From Variovorax sp. Root318D1 (GTDB taxonomy: Bacteria; Pseudomonadota; Gammaproteobacteria; Burkholderiales; Burkholderiaceae_C): DNA of 64,000 nucleotides. The notes beneath the pieces were generated by a model. It was not told the origin of the DNA and did not search any database. It saw only the letters and a list, made by a program, of their open reading frames with translations. Shown piece by piece: positions 11,496 through 18,455 of the stretch (within the stretch, counting starts at the first letter, position 1; each line of letters begins with the position of its first letter). A program made the position numbers and the translations under genes. The stretch covers positions 269,562-333,561 of the forward strand of contig NZ_LMCQ01000024.1 in NCBI RefSeq assembly GCF_001424835.1, in the 5' to 3' direction.

Positions 11496-14450
11496 TTACG
11501 GCGCCGACAGGTGCTTGCCCACGATGCCCGCGAGTTCGAACATCGTCACCTGGTCCTTGCCGAACACCGGCTTGAGCTTGGCGTCGGCATTGATCGCGCG
11601 CTTGTTGGTTGCGTCCTGCAGGCCGTTGGCCTTGATGTAGTCCCACAGCTTCTTGATGACCTCGGTGCGCGCCACCGGTTCGGCGCCGATGACCGCGGCC
11701 AGCGAGTCGCTCGGCTTCAGGCCGGCGCCGGGCTTGCGCGGCGCGGCGGCCTTCTTCGCGGCCGGTGCTTTCTTGGCGGCGGGGGTTTTCTTCGCAGCCA
11801 CCTTCTTGGCTGCCGCAGTCTTGCCGGCAGCCGGCGCTTTGCCGAAGGTCTTGCGCGGCGGGAACTTGCTGCCGCCTTCACGCGGTGCGAACTCGAAAGT
11901 CACCTTGCCCTCTTCGGCATTCCAGGTCAGGAAGGCCTTGAAGGCGCGGCGCGTGCGCATGCTCACGAACTTGTCGAGCAGGTCGGTCTTGCCGGTGGCG
12001 AGCAGCTTTTCCATCTGCGCGCGCTCCACCGGCTGCTGCAGGATGATCTTGCCGGTCTTGAAGGTACAGCTCGGCGTCGGCTGCGCGTTGGTGGGCACCG
12101 ACTTTTCGCAGACATAGTTGCTGCCGTGCTCGAACACCGGCGCACCGCAGATGGGGCATGGGCCCACCGTGTCCTGCTCGCTGAAGTCGACGATCTCGCC
12201 GGTATCGGCGTTCTTGTCGTCGCCGAAGTCGAACTCCAGCTTCCAGTTCTTTGATTCTTCCTCGTCGTACTTGAGGATGATCTCGGCGGTGAAGGGCCAG
12301 CCCGCCTTGGAGCGGAAGCCTTCCAGCGGGCCGATGTGCTTGTCGCGCAAGAGCGCCTCGGCCTCGGCCACCTCGAAGGTGCGCCCGGCCGGTGACTTGC
12401 CGAACGAGAAGCCGCAGGCATCCTCGCCCGTGCCGCTCTTGCCCACGCAGCCGTAGCGGCGGTAGTTCTCCTTCACCACGCCGCCGCAGTTGGGGCATGG
12501 CGTCGCGAGCGTGGCGTAGTCGCCCGGCACGGTGTCGCGGTCGTATTCCTTCGCCTTCTTGACGATGTGCTCCGTCATTTCGGCAATCTCGCGCATGAAG
12601 GCGTCGCGGCTCAGCGCGCCCTTCTCCATCTGCGCGAGCTTGTATTCCCACTCGCCCGTGAGTTCGGCTTTGGAGAGTTCTTCCACGCCCAGGCCGCGCA
12701 GCAGCGTCATGAGCTGGAAGGCTTTGGCGGTGGGAATCAGCTCGCGGCCTTCGCGCAGCATGTATTTTTCGGTGATCAGGCCTTCGATGGTGGCGGCGCG
12801 CGTGGCTGGCGTGCCAAGGCCCTTCTCCTGCATGGCCTCGCGCAGTTCGTCGTCGTCGATAGTCTTGCCGGCGCCTTCCATGGCGCCGAGCAGCGTGGCT
12901 TCCGAATAGCGTGCCGGCGGTCGGGTCTTCAGCGCCTTCAGGTCGGCCGATTCGGTCTTCACCGTTTCGCCCGGTTTCACCACCACCAGGTTCTTGCCGT
13001 CCTTCTCGTCGTCGTCGTTGATGGCTTCCTTGCCCCAGATGGCCAGCCAGCCCGGCTTGACCAGCACCTTGCCGTCGCTGCGGAACGGGTACTTCTTGCC
13101 ACCGGCTTCCACCGTGCTGATGCGGGTGGTGACCTGGAATTCGGCGCTCGGAAAGAACACCGACATGAAGCGGCGCACCACGAAGTCGTAGAGCTTCTGC
13201 TCGGCCTCCGAAAGGCCGCTCGGCGCCTGCAGCGTTGGGATGATGGCGAAGTGGTCCGACACCTTGGCGTTGTCGAAGATGCGCTTGTTCGGCTTCACAT
13301 AGCTGCCGTCGACCGCCTGCTGCGCAAAAGGCGCGAGATGCTTCATGCCGCTGTCGGCAAGCATCTTCATGGTGTCCTTGACCACCGGCAGGTAGTCCTC
13401 GGGCAGCGCGCGCGAGTCGGTACGCGGGTAGGTCAGCGCCTTGTGGCGCTCGTACAGGCTCTGCGCCAGCGCCAGCGTGGTCTTGGCCGAGAAGCCGAAG
13501 CGGCCATTGGCCTCGCGCTGCAGCGACGTCAGGTCGAACAGCATCGGGGAGGCCTGGGTGGTGGGCTTGCTTTCCTCGGTGACGGTGGCGGGCTTGCCGC
13601 GCGCCGCATCGGCGATCTCGCGCGCTTCGCGCTCGCTCCACACGCGATCGGCGCGAATTTCCGGGTCGGCCACGCCGTCGGGGCCCGGCGGCGGCTTCTT
13701 GAAGTTGGCGTCGAACCACTTGCCCGGGTACTGTCCGGCCTCGGCCTGGAACGCGCCGTGGATTTCCCAGTAGTCGCGGCTCACGAACTTGCGGATCTTT
13801 TCCTCGCGCTCGACCACCACCGAGAGCGTGGGCGTCTGCACCCGGCCCACGGTCGTCAAAAAGAAGCCGCCATCGCGCGAATTGAACGCCGTCATGGCGC
13901 GCGTGCCGTTGATGCCCACCAGCCAGTCGGCCTCGGAGCGCGAGCGCGCGGCGTCGGCCAGGCCCTGCATCTGCTTTTCGGTGCGCAGCGCGTCGAAGCC
14001 GTCGCGAATGGCCTGCGGCGTCATCGACTGCAGCCACAGGCGCTTCACCGGCTTGTTCAGGCCGGTCTTGCCGCCGGCGTACTGCTCGATCAAGCGGAAG
14101 ATCAGTTCGCCCTCGCGGCCCGCGTCGCAGGCGTTGATGAGTTGCGTCACGTCCTTGCGCTTGGCCTGCTTGACCACGGCGTTCAGGCGCGTCTTTGTCT
14201 TGTCGACCGGCTTGAGGTCGAAGTGCGGCGGAATCACCGGCAGGTTCGCGAAGCTCCACTTGCCCCGCTTGACGTCGAACTCCTCGGGCGCCTGGATCTC
14301 GACCAGGTGACCGACAGCGCTGGTCACAACGTAGCTTTCGTTCTCGAAATGCTCGTCATGTTTGTCGAACTTGCCGGCCACCGGCGTGAGCGCACGGACG
14401 ATGTCCTGTGCCACCGACGGCTTTTCTGCAATTACCAAAGTCTTTGTCAT
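11496..14450 (-). CDS. topB: DNA topoisomerase III with histone H1-like linker and C-terminal SWIB domain
   Basis: A 984-residue type IA topoisomerase. The TOPRIM domain has Glu9 (LVIAEKPS) and DAGREGELI (109-117); GRVQTPTL is at 203-210; the catalytic tyrosine is Tyr341 in TYPRTDSRALP. Behind the core are degenerate zinc-binding segments (CPNCGG, CPICGAPVF). Residues about 867-910 (bases 11721-11852) are a lysine/alanine/proline repeat of histone H1 type, and residues about 911-984 (11499-11720) form a SWIB/MDM2-like domain (VIKKLWDYIKANGLQD). E. coli TopB is about 650 residues, so 330 extra residues are present. The enzyme decatenates DNA and resolves replication intermediates. It is divergent from the SET gene. 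Confidence 0.92.
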   Translation of the reverse strand: MTKTLVIAEKPSVAQDIVRALTPVAGKFDKHDEHFENESYVVTSAVGHLVEIQAPEEFDVKRGKWSFANLPVIPPHFDLKPVDKTKTRLNAVVKQAKRKDVTQLINACDAGREGELIFRLIEQYAGGKTGLNKPVKRLWLQSMTPQAIRDGFDALRTEKQMQGLADAARSRSEADWLVGINGTRAMTAFNSRDGGFFLTTVGRVQTPTLSVVVEREEKIRKFVSRDYWEIHGAFQAEAGQYPGKWFDANFKKPPPGPDGVADPEIRADRVWSEREAREIADAARGKPATVTEESKPTTQASPMLFDLTSLQREANGRFGFSAKTTLALAQSLYERHKALTYPRTDSRALPEDYLPVVKDTMKMLADSGMKHLAPFAQQAVDGSYVKPNKRIFDNAKVSDHFAIIPTLQAPSGLSEAEQKLYDFVVRRFMSVFFPSAEFQVTTRISTVEAGGKKYPFRSDGKVLVKPGWLAIWGKEAINDDDEKDGKNLVVVKPGETVKTESADLKALKTRPPARYSEATLLGAMEGAGKTIDDDELREAMQEKGLGTPATRAATIEGLITEKYMLREGRELIPTAKAFQLMTLLRGLGVEELSKAELTGEWEYKLAQMEKGALSRDAFMREIAEMTEHIVKKAKEYDRDTVPGDYATLATPCPNCGGVVKENYRRYGCVGKSGTGEDACGFSFGKSPAGRTFEVAEAEALLRDKHIGPLEGFRSKAGWPFTAEIILKYDEEESKNWKLEFDFGDDKNADTGEIVDFSEQDTVGPCPICGAPVFEHGSNYVCEKSVPTNAQPTPSCTFKTGKIILQQPVERAQMEKLLATGKTDLLDKFVSMRTRRAFKAFLTWNAEEGKVTFEFAPREGGSKFPPRKTFGKAPAAGKTAAAKKVAAKKTPAAKKAPAAKKAAAPRKPGAGLKPSDSLAAVIGAEPVARTEVIKKLWDYIKANGLQDATNKRAINADAKLKPVFGKDQVTMFELAGIVGKHLSAP

Positions 14451-14479
14451 CTAAGGGCTCTCTATACTCTGCGGCTTCC

Positions 14480-14516
14480 CGCGTGTGCGCACGCGCACAC
14501 GCGCATGTGTGCATAT
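14480..14516. other. 37-bp perfect alternating purine-pyrimidine tract with 10-bp inverted repeat (Z-DNA/cruciform-prone)
   Basis: Every step from 14480 to 14516 alternates pyrimidine and purine, mostly GC and GT/CA steps. Within it 14481-14490 and 14493-14502 form a 10-bp perfect inverted repeat with a 2-base spacer. It lies in the 87-bp gap between divergent topB and the SET gene. A TATACT at 14463-14468 could be a -10 box for the SET gene, which would put the tract in its leader; no good -35 was found. Confidence 0.75.
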
Positions 14517-14537
14517 TCAACCTAACAGACTTCGGCG

Positions 14538-15179
14538 ATGCCTTCCAAATCCCCACAATTTGCCGGCCGCCGCATTCAGATGCGGCGATCGGATGTCCAC
14601 GGCAACGGCGTTTTCGCCGTGGACGACTTGGCCGAAGGCGAGACGCTGATCGAATACAAGGGCGAAGTCATCAACTGGAAAGAGGCGCTGCGCCGCCACC
14701 CGCACGATCCCGCTCAGCCGAATCACACCTTCTACTTCCACATCGACGACGGGCGCGTGATTGACGGCAACGTGAACGGCAACGCGGCCCGCTGGATCAA
14801 TCATTCCTGCGAGCCGAACTGCGAGGCCGACGAGGTCAATGGGCGCGTTTATATCAAGGCGCTGCGCAACATCGCTGCAGGAGAAGAGCTCAATTACGAC
14901 TACGGGCTGATCATCGACGAGCCCTACACGCCGAAGCTGCTGGCCGAGTTTCCCTGCTGGTGCGGCTCAGAGAGTTGCCGTGGCACCTTGCTGACGCCCA
15001 AGGACGAAGACGAAGAAAAGAAAAAGAAGAAAAAGGCCAAGAAGAAGGCCGAAAAGAAAAAGGCCGAGAAAAAGGAGGCCAAGAAGGCGGACAAGGAAGC
15101 CGAGAAGAAGGCCGACAAGAAGACTGAAAAGAAGGCGGAAAAAAAGAAGTCCAAGAAGGACGAGGCCGGCAAGGGCTGA
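14538..15179 (+). CDS. SET-domain protein-lysine methyltransferase with lysine-rich tail
   Basis: A 213-residue protein. Residues about 8-128 form a SET domain: RRSDVHGNGVFA at the start, NHSCEPNC (88-95) for cofactor and substrate binding, and GEELNYDYG (115-123) with the catalytic tyrosine. A post-SET cysteine cluster follows (Cys140, Cys142, Cys147). Residues 153-213 are a charged tail made almost only of Lys, Glu, Ala and Asp. It would transfer methyl groups from S-adenosylmethionine to lysine side chains; the target is unknown. It is divergent from a topoisomerase with an H1-like tail and is followed by birA after 2 bp. SET proteins in bacteria are often thought to derive from eukaryotes. 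Confidence 0.88.
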   Translation: MPSKSPQFAGRRIQMRRSDVHGNGVFAVDDLAEGETLIEYKGEVINWKEALRRHPHDPAQPNHTFYFHIDDGRVIDGNVNGNAARWINHSCEPNCEADEVNGRVYIKALRNIAAGEELNYDYGLIIDEPYTPKLLAEFPCWCGSESCRGTLLTPKDEDEEKKKKKKAKKKAEKKKAEKKEAKKADKEAEKKADKKTEKKAEKKKSKKDEAGKG

Positions 15180-15181
15180 GC

Positions 15182-16006
15182 ATGGGCACCACGGCCGCCT
15201 GGTTCGAAGACCGCATTGCCGCCGCTGTCGCGCCGCTGCTGCCCGGCTTCACGGTCGAGGCCGTGGCCGAGATCGATTCGACCAACACCGAGCTGATGCG
15301 CCGCGCGCGCGCCGGCCGCATCGAACCTGTGCTGCTGGTGGCCGAGCGCCAGACCGCCGGGCGCGGCCGACTCGGCCGGCCCTGGCAAAGCGCGCAGCAA
15401 AGCGAAGACAGCGCCGCTTCCCTCACCTTCTCTCTGGGCCTGCCGCTCGCGCCGCGCGACTGGTCGGGCCTGTCGCTGGCCGTGGGCGTCAGCGTGGCGG
15501 AAAGCCTCGACCCCTCGGGCGATGCAAAGGTCATGCTCAAGTGGCCGAACGACCTGTGGGTGGACGACCGCAAGCTGGCCGGCATCCTGATCGAAACCGC
15601 CATGCCGCACGCCGCGCGCTCCGAGGGGCCGCTTGCAGAGCCGCGCTACCTGGTGATCGGCATCGGCATCAACATCGGCCCGCGCGACGCAGAGGGCATG
15701 CGCACTCCGCCCGCGTGGCTGCGCCAATGGCGCCCGGACGCCACCGCGCCCGAGGTGCTAGCCCAGCTGGCGGCGCCGCTGGTGCGAAGCGTTCAGAGTT
15801 TCGAGGCCGAGGGCTTCGTGTCCTTTGCCGAGCGCTTTGCCGCGCGCGATGCGCTGCGCGGGCGCGAGGTCCAGCTCAGCGACGGCAGCGTCGGCCTGTG
15901 CGAGGGCGTGGCCTGGGGCGGCGAGCTGCAGGTGCGCACCGCCGCCGGCCTGCAGCTGGTCTCGAGCGATGAAGTCAGCGTGCGCCCGCGCGGCATGGCC
16001 TTTTGA
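15182..16006 (+). CDS. birA: Biotin--[acetyl-CoA-carboxylase] ligase
   Basis: A 274-residue ligase. Visible motifs are EIDSTNTELM near the start, the biotinyl-AMP loop QTAGRGRLGRPW (56-67), and KWPNDLWVDDRKLAGILIE. A C-terminal SH3-like cap ends the protein. It lacks the N-terminal winged helix of E. coli BirA, so it is a group I enzyme that joins biotin to carboxylases without acting as a repressor. The start at 15182 is 2 bp after the SET gene stop, so the two are co-transcribed. Confidence 0.93.
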   Translation: MGTTAAWFEDRIAAAVAPLLPGFTVEAVAEIDSTNTELMRRARAGRIEPVLLVAERQTAGRGRLGRPWQSAQQSEDSAASLTFSLGLPLAPRDWSGLSLAVGVSVAESLDPSGDAKVMLKWPNDLWVDDRKLAGILIETAMPHAARSEGPLAEPRYLVIGIGINIGPRDAEGMRTPPAWLRQWRPDATAPEVLAQLAAPLVRSVQSFEAEGFVSFAERFAARDALRGREVQLSDGSVGLCEGVAWGGELQVRTAAGLQLVSSDEVSVRPRGMAF

Positions 16007-16230: not shown

Positions 16231-17676
16231 TCAGGGCGCGGCTTCTTCGTCGGCAAAGCGCACCGTGAAGCGGGCGCCCGGCGGTTGCCGCCCCGGATGC
16301 GCGTCTTCGAGCTTGACCTGCGCGTGGTGCTGGTTGGCAATCTCGCGCACGATCGGCAGGCCCAGCCCCGAGCCGTCGGCCTCGTTGCCCAGCACGCGGT
16401 AAAAGGGCTCGAACACCAGCTCCCGATCGGATTCCGCGATGCCCGGGCCGTTGTCCTCCACCTGCAGCAGCACCACGTGGCCGAACGGATCGGCCAGCAG
16501 GCGCGCGGTGATCACGCCCGGCCGCTCGGGGGTCGATGGCGTGTAGTTGATGGCGTTGTCGACCAGGTTGCGCACCAGCTCCTTCAGCAAGGTCGGGTTG
16601 CCTTCGAGCACCACGCCGGGCGCGCCCGCCTCGGCGCCGTCGTAGCCCAGGTCGATGCGTTTCTCGATGGCGCGCGGCACGGCTTCGCGCACCACTTCAA
16701 TGGTGAGCCGGGCCAGGTCGCAGGGCTGGCGGCCGGTGCCCGCACCGGTGCTTTCGGCTCGGGCGAGCGAGAGCAGCTGGTTGACCGTGTGGGTGGCGCG
16801 CACGCTGGCGCGGCCGATCTGCTTGAGCGACTGCTTGAGCTCGTCGGCGTTGGCGCCCTCGCGCTGCGCCAGGTCGGCTTGCATGCGCAGGCCCGCGAGC
16901 GGCGTCTTGAGCTGGTGCGCGGCGTCGGCCAGGAAGCGCTTTTGGGTATGGATCGAATCGTTGAGCTTGTCGAGCAACTCGTTGACCGAAGACACCAGCG
17001 GCACCACTTCGAGTGGCACCGACGATTCGTCGAGCGGGCTCAGGTCGCCCGGTCGGCGTTCGCGGATGCGGGCCTCCACCACCGACAGCGGTTTGATGCC
17101 GCGGACCAGCGCCAGCCAGATCAGCAGCACCGCGAGCGGCAGGATCGCGAATTGCGGGAGCAGCACGCCCTTGATGATCTCGGTGGCCAGAACCGACTGC
17201 TTCTCGCGCGTCTCGGCCACCTGCAGCAGGGCCGAGGCCGAGTCGTCGTCGCCGTCGGCCAGCCAGAGCGAGGCCACGCGAACCGGCTTGCCGCGCATTT
17301 CGCCATTGCGCAGCGTGACCACGCCCGTGACCGGCGGCTCATCGGTATTGGGGTGCGGCACGTCGGATTCGCCGCTGAGGAGCTTGCCGTGGCTGTCGAG
17401 CAGCTGGTAGTAGACGCGATCGGCCCCGTCGGCCCGCAAGATCTCGCGTGCCGGCTGCGGCAGCACGAACTGCGTCTGCCCCTGCTGCACGGTGACGAGC
17501 CGCGCCAGCGTATGCACGTTGTATTCGAGCGCGCGGTCGAACGGCGCGTTGGCAATGCCCTGCGCCACCAGCCACGTGACACCGATGCTCACCGGCACCA
17601 GCAGCAGCAGTGGCGTGAGCATCCAGTCGAGGATCTCGCCGAACAGGGAGCGCTGCGCGCGCTGAAACAGTTTCAA
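16231..17676 (-). CDS. Sensor histidine kinase, TctE/QseC-like
   Basis: A 481-residue membrane kinase. Transmembrane helices are at about 18-40 and 172-193, flanking a periplasmic domain of about 130 residues. Then come a HAMP-like linker, the dimerisation helix with phospho-acceptor His254 (DAAHQLKTPLAGLRMQ), and the ATPase domain with NAINYTP (N box), VEDNGPGI (G1) and GSGLGLPIV (G2). The periplasmic domain fits the 2CSK-N type found in TctE-like kinases that sense tricarboxylates, but the ligand is not known. It is 41 bp downstream of its response regulator gene. Confidence 0.9.
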   Translation of the reverse strand: MKLFQRAQRSLFGEILDWMLTPLLLLVPVSIGVTWLVAQGIANAPFDRALEYNVHTLARLVTVQQGQTQFVLPQPAREILRADGADRVYYQLLDSHGKLLSGESDVPHPNTDEPPVTGVVTLRNGEMRGKPVRVASLWLADGDDDSASALLQVAETREKQSVLATEIIKGVLLPQFAILPLAVLLIWLALVRGIKPLSVVEARIRERRPGDLSPLDESSVPLEVVPLVSSVNELLDKLNDSIHTQKRFLADAAHQLKTPLAGLRMQADLAQREGANADELKQSLKQIGRASVRATHTVNQLLSLARAESTGAGTGRQPCDLARLTIEVVREAVPRAIEKRIDLGYDGAEAGAPGVVLEGNPTLLKELVRNLVDNAINYTPSTPERPGVITARLLADPFGHVVLLQVEDNGPGIAESDRELVFEPFYRVLGNEADGSGLGLPIVREIANQHHAQVKLEDAHPGRQPPGARFTVRFADEEAAP

Positions 17677-17717
17677 GGCTTACGGCCTCCAAAGCCGCCG
17701 GGCATGCCTGAGTGTCA

Positions 17718-18389
17718 TTACTGGATTTTTTCGAGGCAGTAGCCGAGGCCGCGAACCGTGGCGATGCGCACCGGCCCTTTCTCGATCTTCTTGCGCAGGC
17801 GGTGGATGTACACCTCGATCGCGTTCTGGCTCACTTCCTCGCCCCATTCGCACAGGCGCTCCACCAGCTGGTCCTTGCTGACCAGGCGACCGGCGCGCTG
17901 CAGCAGCACCTCGAGCAGGCCGAGTTCGCGCGCCGAGAGCTCGACCATCTTGCCGTCGATGGTGGCCACGCGCCCGGCCTGGTCGTACACAAGCGGGCCG
18001 TGCCGGATGGTGTTGCTGGTGGCGCCCATGCCGCGCCGCGTGAGCGCACGCACGCGCGCTTCGAGCTCCTGCAGGCTGAAGGGCTTGGCCATGTAGTCGT
18101 CGGCGCCATGGTCCAGGCCCTTGACCCGTTCCTCCACGCTGTCAGCCGCAGTGAGCACTAGCACGGGCAGCTGCGAGCCGCGCGCGCGCAGCCGCTTCAA
18201 GATTTCGATGCCATGGAGGTTGGGCAGGCCGAGGTCGAGAATCAGCAGGTCGAACTCGCTGTGCGTCATCAGGGCGGCGTCGGCCTGCGAGCCGTTCGCC
18301 ACATGATCGACCGCCGCGCCCGAAGTGCGCAGGCTGCGCAGCAGGGCATCGGCCAGCACCTGGTCGTCTTCGGCAATCAGAATCCGCAT
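17718..18389 (-). CDS. OmpR/PhoB-type response regulator
   Basis: A 223-residue regulator. The receiver domain has the acidic pair Asp8-Asp9, phospho-acceptor Asp52 (LLILDLGLPN) and the conserved lysine in YMAKPFSLQELEARVRAL. The C-terminal winged helix has ELSARELGLLEVLL and SQNAIEVYIHRLRKKIEKG. The frame extends upstream to 18434, but MRILIAEDD at 18389 is the family's start. It pairs with the kinase immediately downstream. No target promoter could be identified. Confidence 0.92.
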   Translation of the reverse strand: MRILIAEDDQVLADALLRSLRTSGAAVDHVANGSQADAALMTHSEFDLLILDLGLPNLHGIEILKRLRARGSQLPVLVLTAADSVEERVKGLDHGADDYMAKPFSLQELEARVRALTRRGMGATSNTIRHGPLVYDQAGRVATIDGKMVELSARELGLLEVLLQRAGRLVSKDQLVERLCEWGEEVSQNAIEVYIHRLRKKIEKGPVRIATVRGLGYCLEKIQ

Positions 18390-18455
18390 GAGCCACCTCC
18401 GGCCGGTTCGGCGCCTCGCTGGCGCCGCGTTCACATATGTCTCTCTCAGCCGAGT

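Follow-up and report, generated by a model that had tools for sequence, protein, structure and literature searches.

A conserved alternating purine-pyrimidine tract of Z-DNA type in the divergent topB/SET interval of Variovorax and its relatives: a candidate supercoiling-driven switch

SWIB-tailed topoisomerases III (TopB), bacterial SET-domain proteins and promoter sequences prone to form left-handed Z-DNA are already known kinds of genetic objects. A chlamydial topoisomerase I (TopA) deprived of its SWIB domain is reported to complement Escherichia coli at a reduced level, though complementation is not abolished (PMC12445093). For two prokaryotic SET proteins, Go1-SET and cpnSET, an action on chromatin proteins of their own organisms is reported (review PMC3980110); cpnSET methylates Hc1, a disputed result, and Go1-SET methylates MC1-alpha (PMC3980110, PMC6426960). 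Z-DNA has been detected at sites inserted into bacterial genomic DNA, both in vitro and in vivo, and for sequences of this type a transition to Z-DNA is predicted at physiological negative superhelicity (PMC3024258). Here we describe a stretch of 64,000 nucleotides from Variovorax sp. Root318D1 (assembly GCF_001424835.1, contig NZ_LMCQ01000024.1), referred to below as the window, in which topB and a SET methyltransferase gene followed by birA lie head-to-head around a perfectly alternating purine-pyrimidine tract. On balance, and with modest confidence, we favour the view that topB and, facing away from it, SET-birA form a divergent promoter unit organised around a Z-DNA-type tract that would act as a supercoiling-driven switch between right-handed B-DNA and Z-DNA.

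The alternating tract and its mode of divergence

The start codons of topB and of the SET gene are separated by 87 bp (14451-14537; all positions are those of the window), and this interval contains a 37-bp tract in which purines and pyrimidines alternate without interruption. It is the only alternating run of at least 28 bp in the 5.75-Mb Variovorax genome: the 5 + 5 matches of a 28-letter purine-pyrimidine (RY) pattern, searched in this genome only, all fall inside the tract, and the opposite phase, taken as a control, gives the 5 + 5 matches that the run predicts. For comparison, the interval bounded by the TopB start and the beginning of the SET core was collected from 102 loci, some of which repeat a genome, and amounts to 93 distinct sequences. 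The longest alternating run per interval has a median of 27 bp and ranges from 6 to 56 bp, at varying positions, where shuffled sequences would give 7.8 bp (mononucleotide) or 9.4 bp (dinucleotide); 76 of the 93 intervals exceed their own dinucleotide shuffles at p <= 0.01. Uninterrupted alternation over at least 14, 18, 20 and 25 bp is present in 84, 76, 69 and 54 of the distinct intervals, respectively. Over the 102 loci, the 20.5 kb of intervals hold 80 runs of at least 20 bp, compared with none in the 764 kb surrounding the intervals in the same loci (some of which overlap) and none in 20 control stretches of 20 kb (400 kb) from other family chromosomes (longest run 19 bp); together, 1.16 Mb of other family DNA is free of such runs. 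Counted by genus, with five genomes added, the best run attains at least 17 bp in 51 of 59 genera and at least 20 bp in 45 of 59. Within the runs, CG/GC steps account for 50% and CA/AC/TG/GT steps for 43% of the dinucleotides, both of Z-prone kinds. A long alternating run, rich in CG and CA/TG steps and whose alternation is conserved beyond its letters, fits the Z-DNA-forming type. Upstream of 124 SET genes outside the pair set, no run longer than 15 bp was found.

Divergence was followed in 17 non-overlapping pairs of related loci, the tract being defined in one member only. The 471 aligned tract sites display 52 transitions and 3 transversions, against 296 transitions and 359 transversions in 2742 sites outside the tract (Fisher p 6e-14). 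Transitions occur in the tract at the rate of random segments of the same length (11.0% versus 10.6%), whereas transversions are about 20-fold rarer (0.64% versus 12.2%), a value below all 2000 draws. Gaps of even length make up 15 of 16 in the tract and 22 of 74 outside when ordered pairs are used, each pair being then counted up to twice, and 7 of 8 versus 11 of 35 when the pairs are unordered. Since the depletion concerns transversions and odd-length indels and spares transitions, which run as in the flanks, selection appears to act on the alternation rather than on the letters. A site that is seen in dozens of genera and is depleted of transversions and not of transitions carries the mark expected of selection for handedness over letters; what selection would maintain is the capacity for a B-to-Z transition when the DNA is negatively supercoiled.

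Open frames of 1000-1300 amino acids (aa) running through some SET genes are probably not fusions: an alternating purine-pyrimidine run is stop-free in all frames because TAA, TAG and TGA each need two adjacent purines. Long antisense frames over topB are likewise common, and one of 652 aa is present in the window.

The features of the locus on which the following argument leans are these:

11496..14450, minus strand: topB, DNA topoisomerase III, 984 aa (Topoisom_bac at 356 bits; NCBIfam PRK14724 matched over its whole length, 2003 bits)
11508..11720, minus strand: SWIB/MDM2 domain, TopB aa 911-981 (Pfam PF02201, 89.4 bits, E 1.3e-25, cut-off 25)
11721..11852, minus strand: Lys/Ala/Pro linker of TopB, H1-like by composition only (translation; HC2 model under its cut-off; similar tails in relatives)
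14463..14468, plus strand: TATACT, probable sigma70 -10 box for the SET-birA transcript (from the letters; 11 nt ahead of the tract)
14480..14516, no strand: 37-bp perfect alternating purine-pyrimidine (Z-DNA-type) tract, topB/SET intergenic (sequence; alternation kept across the family)
14538..15179, plus strand: 213-aa SET-domain lysine methyltransferase, whose Lys-rich tail (from 14994) is lineage-specific (Pfam PF00856; MLL1-like in sequence and predicted fold)
15182..16006, plus strand: birA-type biotin ligase (TIGR00121, 135.9 bits against a cut-off of 83.1)

The ligase gene starts 2 bp past the SET stop codon on the same strand. A histidine kinase and a response regulator are encoded at 16231-18434, close to SET-birA, and the 64-kb window returned no tRNA or Rfam match.

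The tract occupies a recurrent position relative to a putative promoter. Among the 79 intervals whose run reaches at least 17 bp, 63 carry on the SET-ward strand a -10-like hexamer (at least 5/6 of TATAAT, mostly TACAAT) ending 6-12 nt before the tract, and the scanned positions further out gave 10 hits. This box just precedes the tract, which therefore begins close to where the SET-birA transcript is expected to start. Matches to a -35 element ahead of the box are poor (best 4/6, in one case), and a promoter scan of 14300-14700 returned nothing at the thresholds used. The idea that the tract is tied to topB alone was dropped, the -10 box facing SET-birA and the genome G318 having its SET start at the contig edge. 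The TACAAT box is retained in all seven readable intervals of family members devoid of SET.

The proposed B-Z switch

According to the proposed mechanism, rising local negative supercoiling would flip the tract to Z-DNA and so absorb several helical turns. The flipped tract would form a left-handed block lying over the first transcribed bases of SET-birA and adjoining the topB start, by which the output of topB and SET would be tied to DNA supercoiling; the response could go in either direction. Rough energetics place the flip of the 37-bp tract near a superhelical density (sigma) of -0.04 in a 5-kb domain, with about 7 turns absorbed. Both the formation of Z-DNA by the tract and its regulatory role are inferred.

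Several observations weigh against such a switch. By the same rough energetics, the 16-bp runs, three of which occur in the window, would flip at a similar sigma while absorbing about 3 turns, so that the long tract differs from them mainly in the number of turns absorbed. A run of at least 17 bp is absent from 8 of the 59 genera and from 14 of the 93 intervals (L064, L069, L081, L085, L136, L137, L156, L167, L288, L289, L290, L294, L303, which is a Thiomonas with 7 bp, and L306), as well as from G275 and G365, judged on 300 bases upstream. Among the four genera lacking SET whose interval was readable, the tract persists at 17-21 bp in two, amounts to 11 bp in a third and is missing from the fourth: the run measures 17 bp in G264 and G356, 21 bp in G220 and 17 bp in G331, at roughly 50-70 bp from the box in the last two, 11 bp in G234, and is missing in G222 and G333. 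No topB promoter was recognised in the interval scans, so the bearing of the tract on topB is positional only. Nor is the element general to topoisomerase genes, since 12 topB upstreams of other families contain no run longer than 12 bp. Finally, the hexamer GCGCAC is present on either strand in 72 of the 79 runs, as a protein-binding site would also produce, and both Z-DNA at the tract and its effect on transcription are predictions from sequence.

Gene order, enzymes and alternative explanations

The preliminary description of this stretch had drawn attention to the gene pair, and the pairing does extend far beyond close relatives, contrary to the first of the outcomes named there as refuting. 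In 200 genomes sampled from the Variovorax family (f1), a SET match is present in 190 and a TopB model match in all 200, 197 of them exceeding the cut-off. The SET domain is divergent from TopB and less than 1.2 kb away in 116 of the 117 genomes with both matches listed, the sole exception having topB and SET on different contigs. This set of 117 stands beside 34 genomes for which only the SET match was listed and 32 for which only the TopB match was; for G246, which has two TopB matches, the one on the contig of SET was kept and a SWIB-bearing fragment elsewhere was dropped, and the Variovorax entry was added separately. Loci with the same order belong, among others, to Rubrivivax, Methylibium, Rhizobacter, Roseateles, Polaromonas and Aquabacterium, names from which we infer that f1 corresponds to Comamonadaceae in the wide sense. 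The family-wide character of the pair refines the preliminary description.

The best surviving alternative, which we hold possible while doubting it somewhat more than trusting it, sees the order as an inherited block, topB against SET-birA, whose conservation is explained by descent and implies no functional coupling between SET and TopB. The conserved block is indeed topB against SET-birA. A birA gene is present in 37 of the 38 topB-SET loci of the family and faces topB directly in five loci devoid of SET. With birA kept equally, nothing in the gene order by itself marks SET and topB as partners, and it was rejected as proof of their coupling. Relatives outside the family carry SET next to other neighbours, which also speaks for descent. 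In three genomes of family f6, SET is convergent with topB, the matches being 115-204 bp apart, and in the two whose upstream side was read it stands behind dnaA-dnaN-gyrB; in two small genomes of family f31, SET begins about 5 bp after gyrB. In 55 of 160 loci (L153-L312), SET is convergent with a histidine kinase and a response regulator akin to those at 16231-18434, named members being for example Burkholderia, Paraburkholderia, Caballeronia, Cupriavidus and Ralstonia. Across 27 loci of the wider class, flanks of at most 1.5 kb each revealed no link of SET to topB or gyrB. What the inherited block leaves unexplained is the tract, whose alternation is kept while its flanks diverge; descent of the gene order and the proposed explanation of the tract can both hold.

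Three observations on these loci are recorded in their own right. Some family members with genomes of 2.5-2.8 Mb (L168-L172) have no SET between topB and birA, and Lys-Lys pairs are scarce in their TopB linkers. A SET gene lies about 5-37 bp past gyrB in dnaA-dnaN-gyrB at L179:2620-5611, L181:2852-5844 and L183:3846-6782, a second link between SET and a topoisomerase. Burkholderia SET genes of the same kind occupy that conserved chromosomal neighbourhood with kinase and regulator genes (L251, L255, L268, L271); a SET protein of B. thailandensis, which may or may not be this gene, is listed as a host-directed effector in a review (PMC3980110).

A second alternative, unlikely in our judgement, dispenses with Z-DNA in the cell: the tract would be an array of binding sites, and the protein recognising its purine-pyrimidine steps a regulator or a nucleoid protein. 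Some octamers do exceed expectation, such as CACATGCG in 21 of the 79 runs where 6.1 were expected, and the frequent GCGCAC (72 of 79, a raw count) points the same way. Against an array stand the commonest octamer, confined to 49 of the 79 runs, the run lengths spread over 6-56 bp, the variable position, and the sharing of words among related species by descent. A Z-DNA-binding protein would fit this reading and the B-Z switch alike.

The explanation offered by the preliminary description, in which SET methylates lysines of the TopB tail, or other H1-like tails, and thereby tunes DNA topology, the pair being kept for that purpose, calls for a closer look at the two enzymes. TopB comprises a type IA topoisomerase core, two stretches of Toprim_Crpt C-terminal repeats, a linker and a SWIB domain (Pfam). 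The match to PRK14724 'DNA topoisomerase III' spans positions 1-988 of 988 with 2003 bits against a cut-off of 1088, and the SWIB-tailed TopB is thus already a named NCBI family (PRK14724 / NF011313). The C-terminal SWIB domain noted earlier is borne out (PF02201, 89.4 bits, 11508-11720), and, by analogy with the chlamydial enzyme only, it may plausibly contribute to TopB activity. The chlamydial topoisomerase I/SWI fusion model PRK06319 scores 187.1 bits on TopB, under its cut-off of 868. In 200 genomes of the order, TopB extends to the SWIB end of its model, among the matches listed, in the 6 genomes of f1 and in no others. The linker at 11721-11852, AAKKVAAKKTPAAKKAPAAKKAA, is plainly rich in Lys, Ala and Pro, as had been stated; its 'histone H1-type' label holds for composition only, the H1-like HC2 model (PF07382) giving 16.1 bits for a cut-off of 40.

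The divergent neighbour is likewise the SET methyltransferase with a Lys-rich tail announced earlier (Pfam SET 82.3 bits, E 3.9e-23, aa 22-123), the tail of 61 aa (14994-15179) counting 30 Lys within a Lys/Glu/Ala composition. This tail is lineage-specific, other relatives having Lys-rich, TAK-repeat or Arg-rich tails or hardly any. The nearest relatives of solved structure are MLL-type methyltransferases (KMT2A, E 2.6e-27). MLL1 is the best PDB match (E 9.2e-14, probability 1.00, TM about 0.67-0.72 in the first rows) of a predicted structure whose confidence is middling (mean pLDDT 70). All 49 family SET sequences, in which at least one genome was entered twice, possess HGxG, NH(S/A/G)C-x-(P/A)NC, YDY and the post-SET CxCGx3C, the strict NHSC being found in 34 of 49. 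All 49 also have a Tyr at the switch position, which we take to suggest low methylation states. SET is probably an active lysine methyltransferase working on a protein of the bacterium itself, likeliest a Lys-rich DNA-binding protein and not necessarily TopB. The LegAS4 effector model NF043024 gives 41.2 bits against a cut-off of 550. A tree of 77 SET sequences, with deep forks unresolved and bootstrap unsettled, supports no claim. The Variovorax genome encodes a second, distant SET protein of 167 aa (L002:1411-1914), without a Lys tail and beside a regulator that looks LysR-like by eye. It also encodes, separately from topB, a 150-aa protein with a PAKKAA-repeat tail and a SWIB domain (L003:1270-1722), which is possibly as good a candidate substrate of SET as TopB.

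Of the circuit that the preliminary description had built on these elements, the domains, the adjacency and the pairing stand, and methylation of the TopB tail finds little comparative support, one hint in its favour excepted; we judge it improbable. The pair is retained in 116 of 117 genomes, SET carries the motifs of an active enzyme, and cpnSET acting on Hc1 (disputed) and Go1-SET on MC1-alpha (PMC3980110, PMC6426960) offer precedents. The number of Lys in TopB tails is slightly higher where SET is present (p 0.045, five mixed families), in a test of 92 tails of the order from which 2 open ones were dropped, leaving 90 (29 with SET, 61 without), genomes having only a divergent SET paralogue being counted as SET-less. 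The hint comes from a late count on 20 f1 loci, uncorrected for kinship: in five loci without SET, from three genera, the TopB linker has 0-1 Lys-Lys (KK) pairs and 13-20% Lys, in contrast to 0-8 pairs, 14 of the 15 loci having 1-8, and 14-27% Lys in 15 SET-bearing loci without SWIB. It lifted our estimate of the circuit slightly, from very improbable to its present standing. The contrary evidence is broader. In 39 of the 117 genomes, the TopB of the pair stops short of the model's SWIB end, to which it extends in the other 78. Lys-containing TopB tails occur without SET within f1 (L168, L171, L172), and Lys-rich ones in many of the 61 genomes of the order in which no such SET is present. In f6, a SET 115-204 bp from the TopB match coexists with a TopB tail holding 1 Lys in 29-31 residues. 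Over the five mixed families, the presence of SET is unrelated to the Lys fraction (p 0.81) or the KK count (p 0.26), and co-evolution of SET with the TopB tail was rejected, no consistent link appearing over the 90 tails of the order. Only 8 of 35 family SETs have a Lys-rich tail of their own, birA is kept beside SET just as faithfully, and SET has other neighbours outside the family. For SWIB/TopB or SET/TopB in Burkholderiales, a literature search found no title or abstract opening reporting either.

Hardly better placed, and in our view a shade less probable than the circuit, is the explanation of the alternation as an unselected by-product of mutation, through dinucleotide slippage and transition bias. 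Slippage of a dinucleotide repeat would yield the mostly even gaps of the tract, and transitions leave alternation intact. The roughly 20-fold scarcity of transversions next to transitions at the flank rate argues against it, as do the mixture of CG, CA, TG and TA steps in the runs where one repeat would be expected, and the absence of any other 28-bp run in the Variovorax genome and of any 20-bp run in the 1.16 Mb of other family DNA. Very improbable is a function at the RNA level, with the element acting in the 5' leader of SET-birA: the -10 box does put the tract near the transcript start, but the palindromes in the runs do not exceed their expected length (9.2 versus 10.2 bp) and alternation is a property of double-stranded structure.

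Comparison with described systems

The supercoiling-driven switch thus remains the reading that we favour for the tract, which, if this is true, may be a sensor of DNA twisting at the topB/SET promoter. Its position beside a topoisomerase gene makes supercoiling feedback directly testable. To our knowledge, the function of Z-DNA in bacteria is still an open question and conserved candidates are scarce. A literature search, with most subscription papers outside its scope, found no title or abstract opening reporting a bacterial topoisomerase or SET gene that has a conserved element of Z type. We put forward, tentatively and with a confidence a little short of even, a dedicated and selected bacterial Z-DNA switch at the topB/SET divergent promoter, one that would read supercoiling by its handedness and feed back on nucleoid-shaping enzymes.

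Each component has a described counterpart from which the locus differs in its setting. The TopB protein is identical in kind to NCBIfam PRK14724 / NF011313, matched over its full length, a family whose name is silent on the SWIB domain, the SET neighbour and the tract. The SET protein resembles the SET-domain proteins of prokaryotes cpnSET, NUE, RomA/LegAS4, BtSET, BaSET and Go1-SET; here, in contrast, it is the product of a conserved chromosomal gene adjoining topB and falls below the cut-off of the LegAS4 model. A parallel is found in Chlamydia, where the SWIB-fused topoisomerase I (CtTopA) is similarly a type IA enzyme ending in a SWIB domain, and where a separate small SWIB protein and a SET protein (NUE/cpnSET) are likewise encoded within one genome (PMC12445093, PMC6426960). 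The chlamydial SWIB domain is carried by TopA, whereas that of the Variovorax locus is carried by TopB; at the latter, SET lies head-to-head with topB and a Z-type tract stands between them. The tract itself can be compared with Z-forming promoter sequences such as that of human c-myc, which also places a Z-prone run near a transcription start and is predicted to flip at physiological superhelicity (PMC3024258). Unlike the c-myc element, the tract of the Variovorax family is bacterial, family-wide, single in the Variovorax genome and situated beside a topoisomerase gene, and it carries sequence evidence of selection on its alternation.

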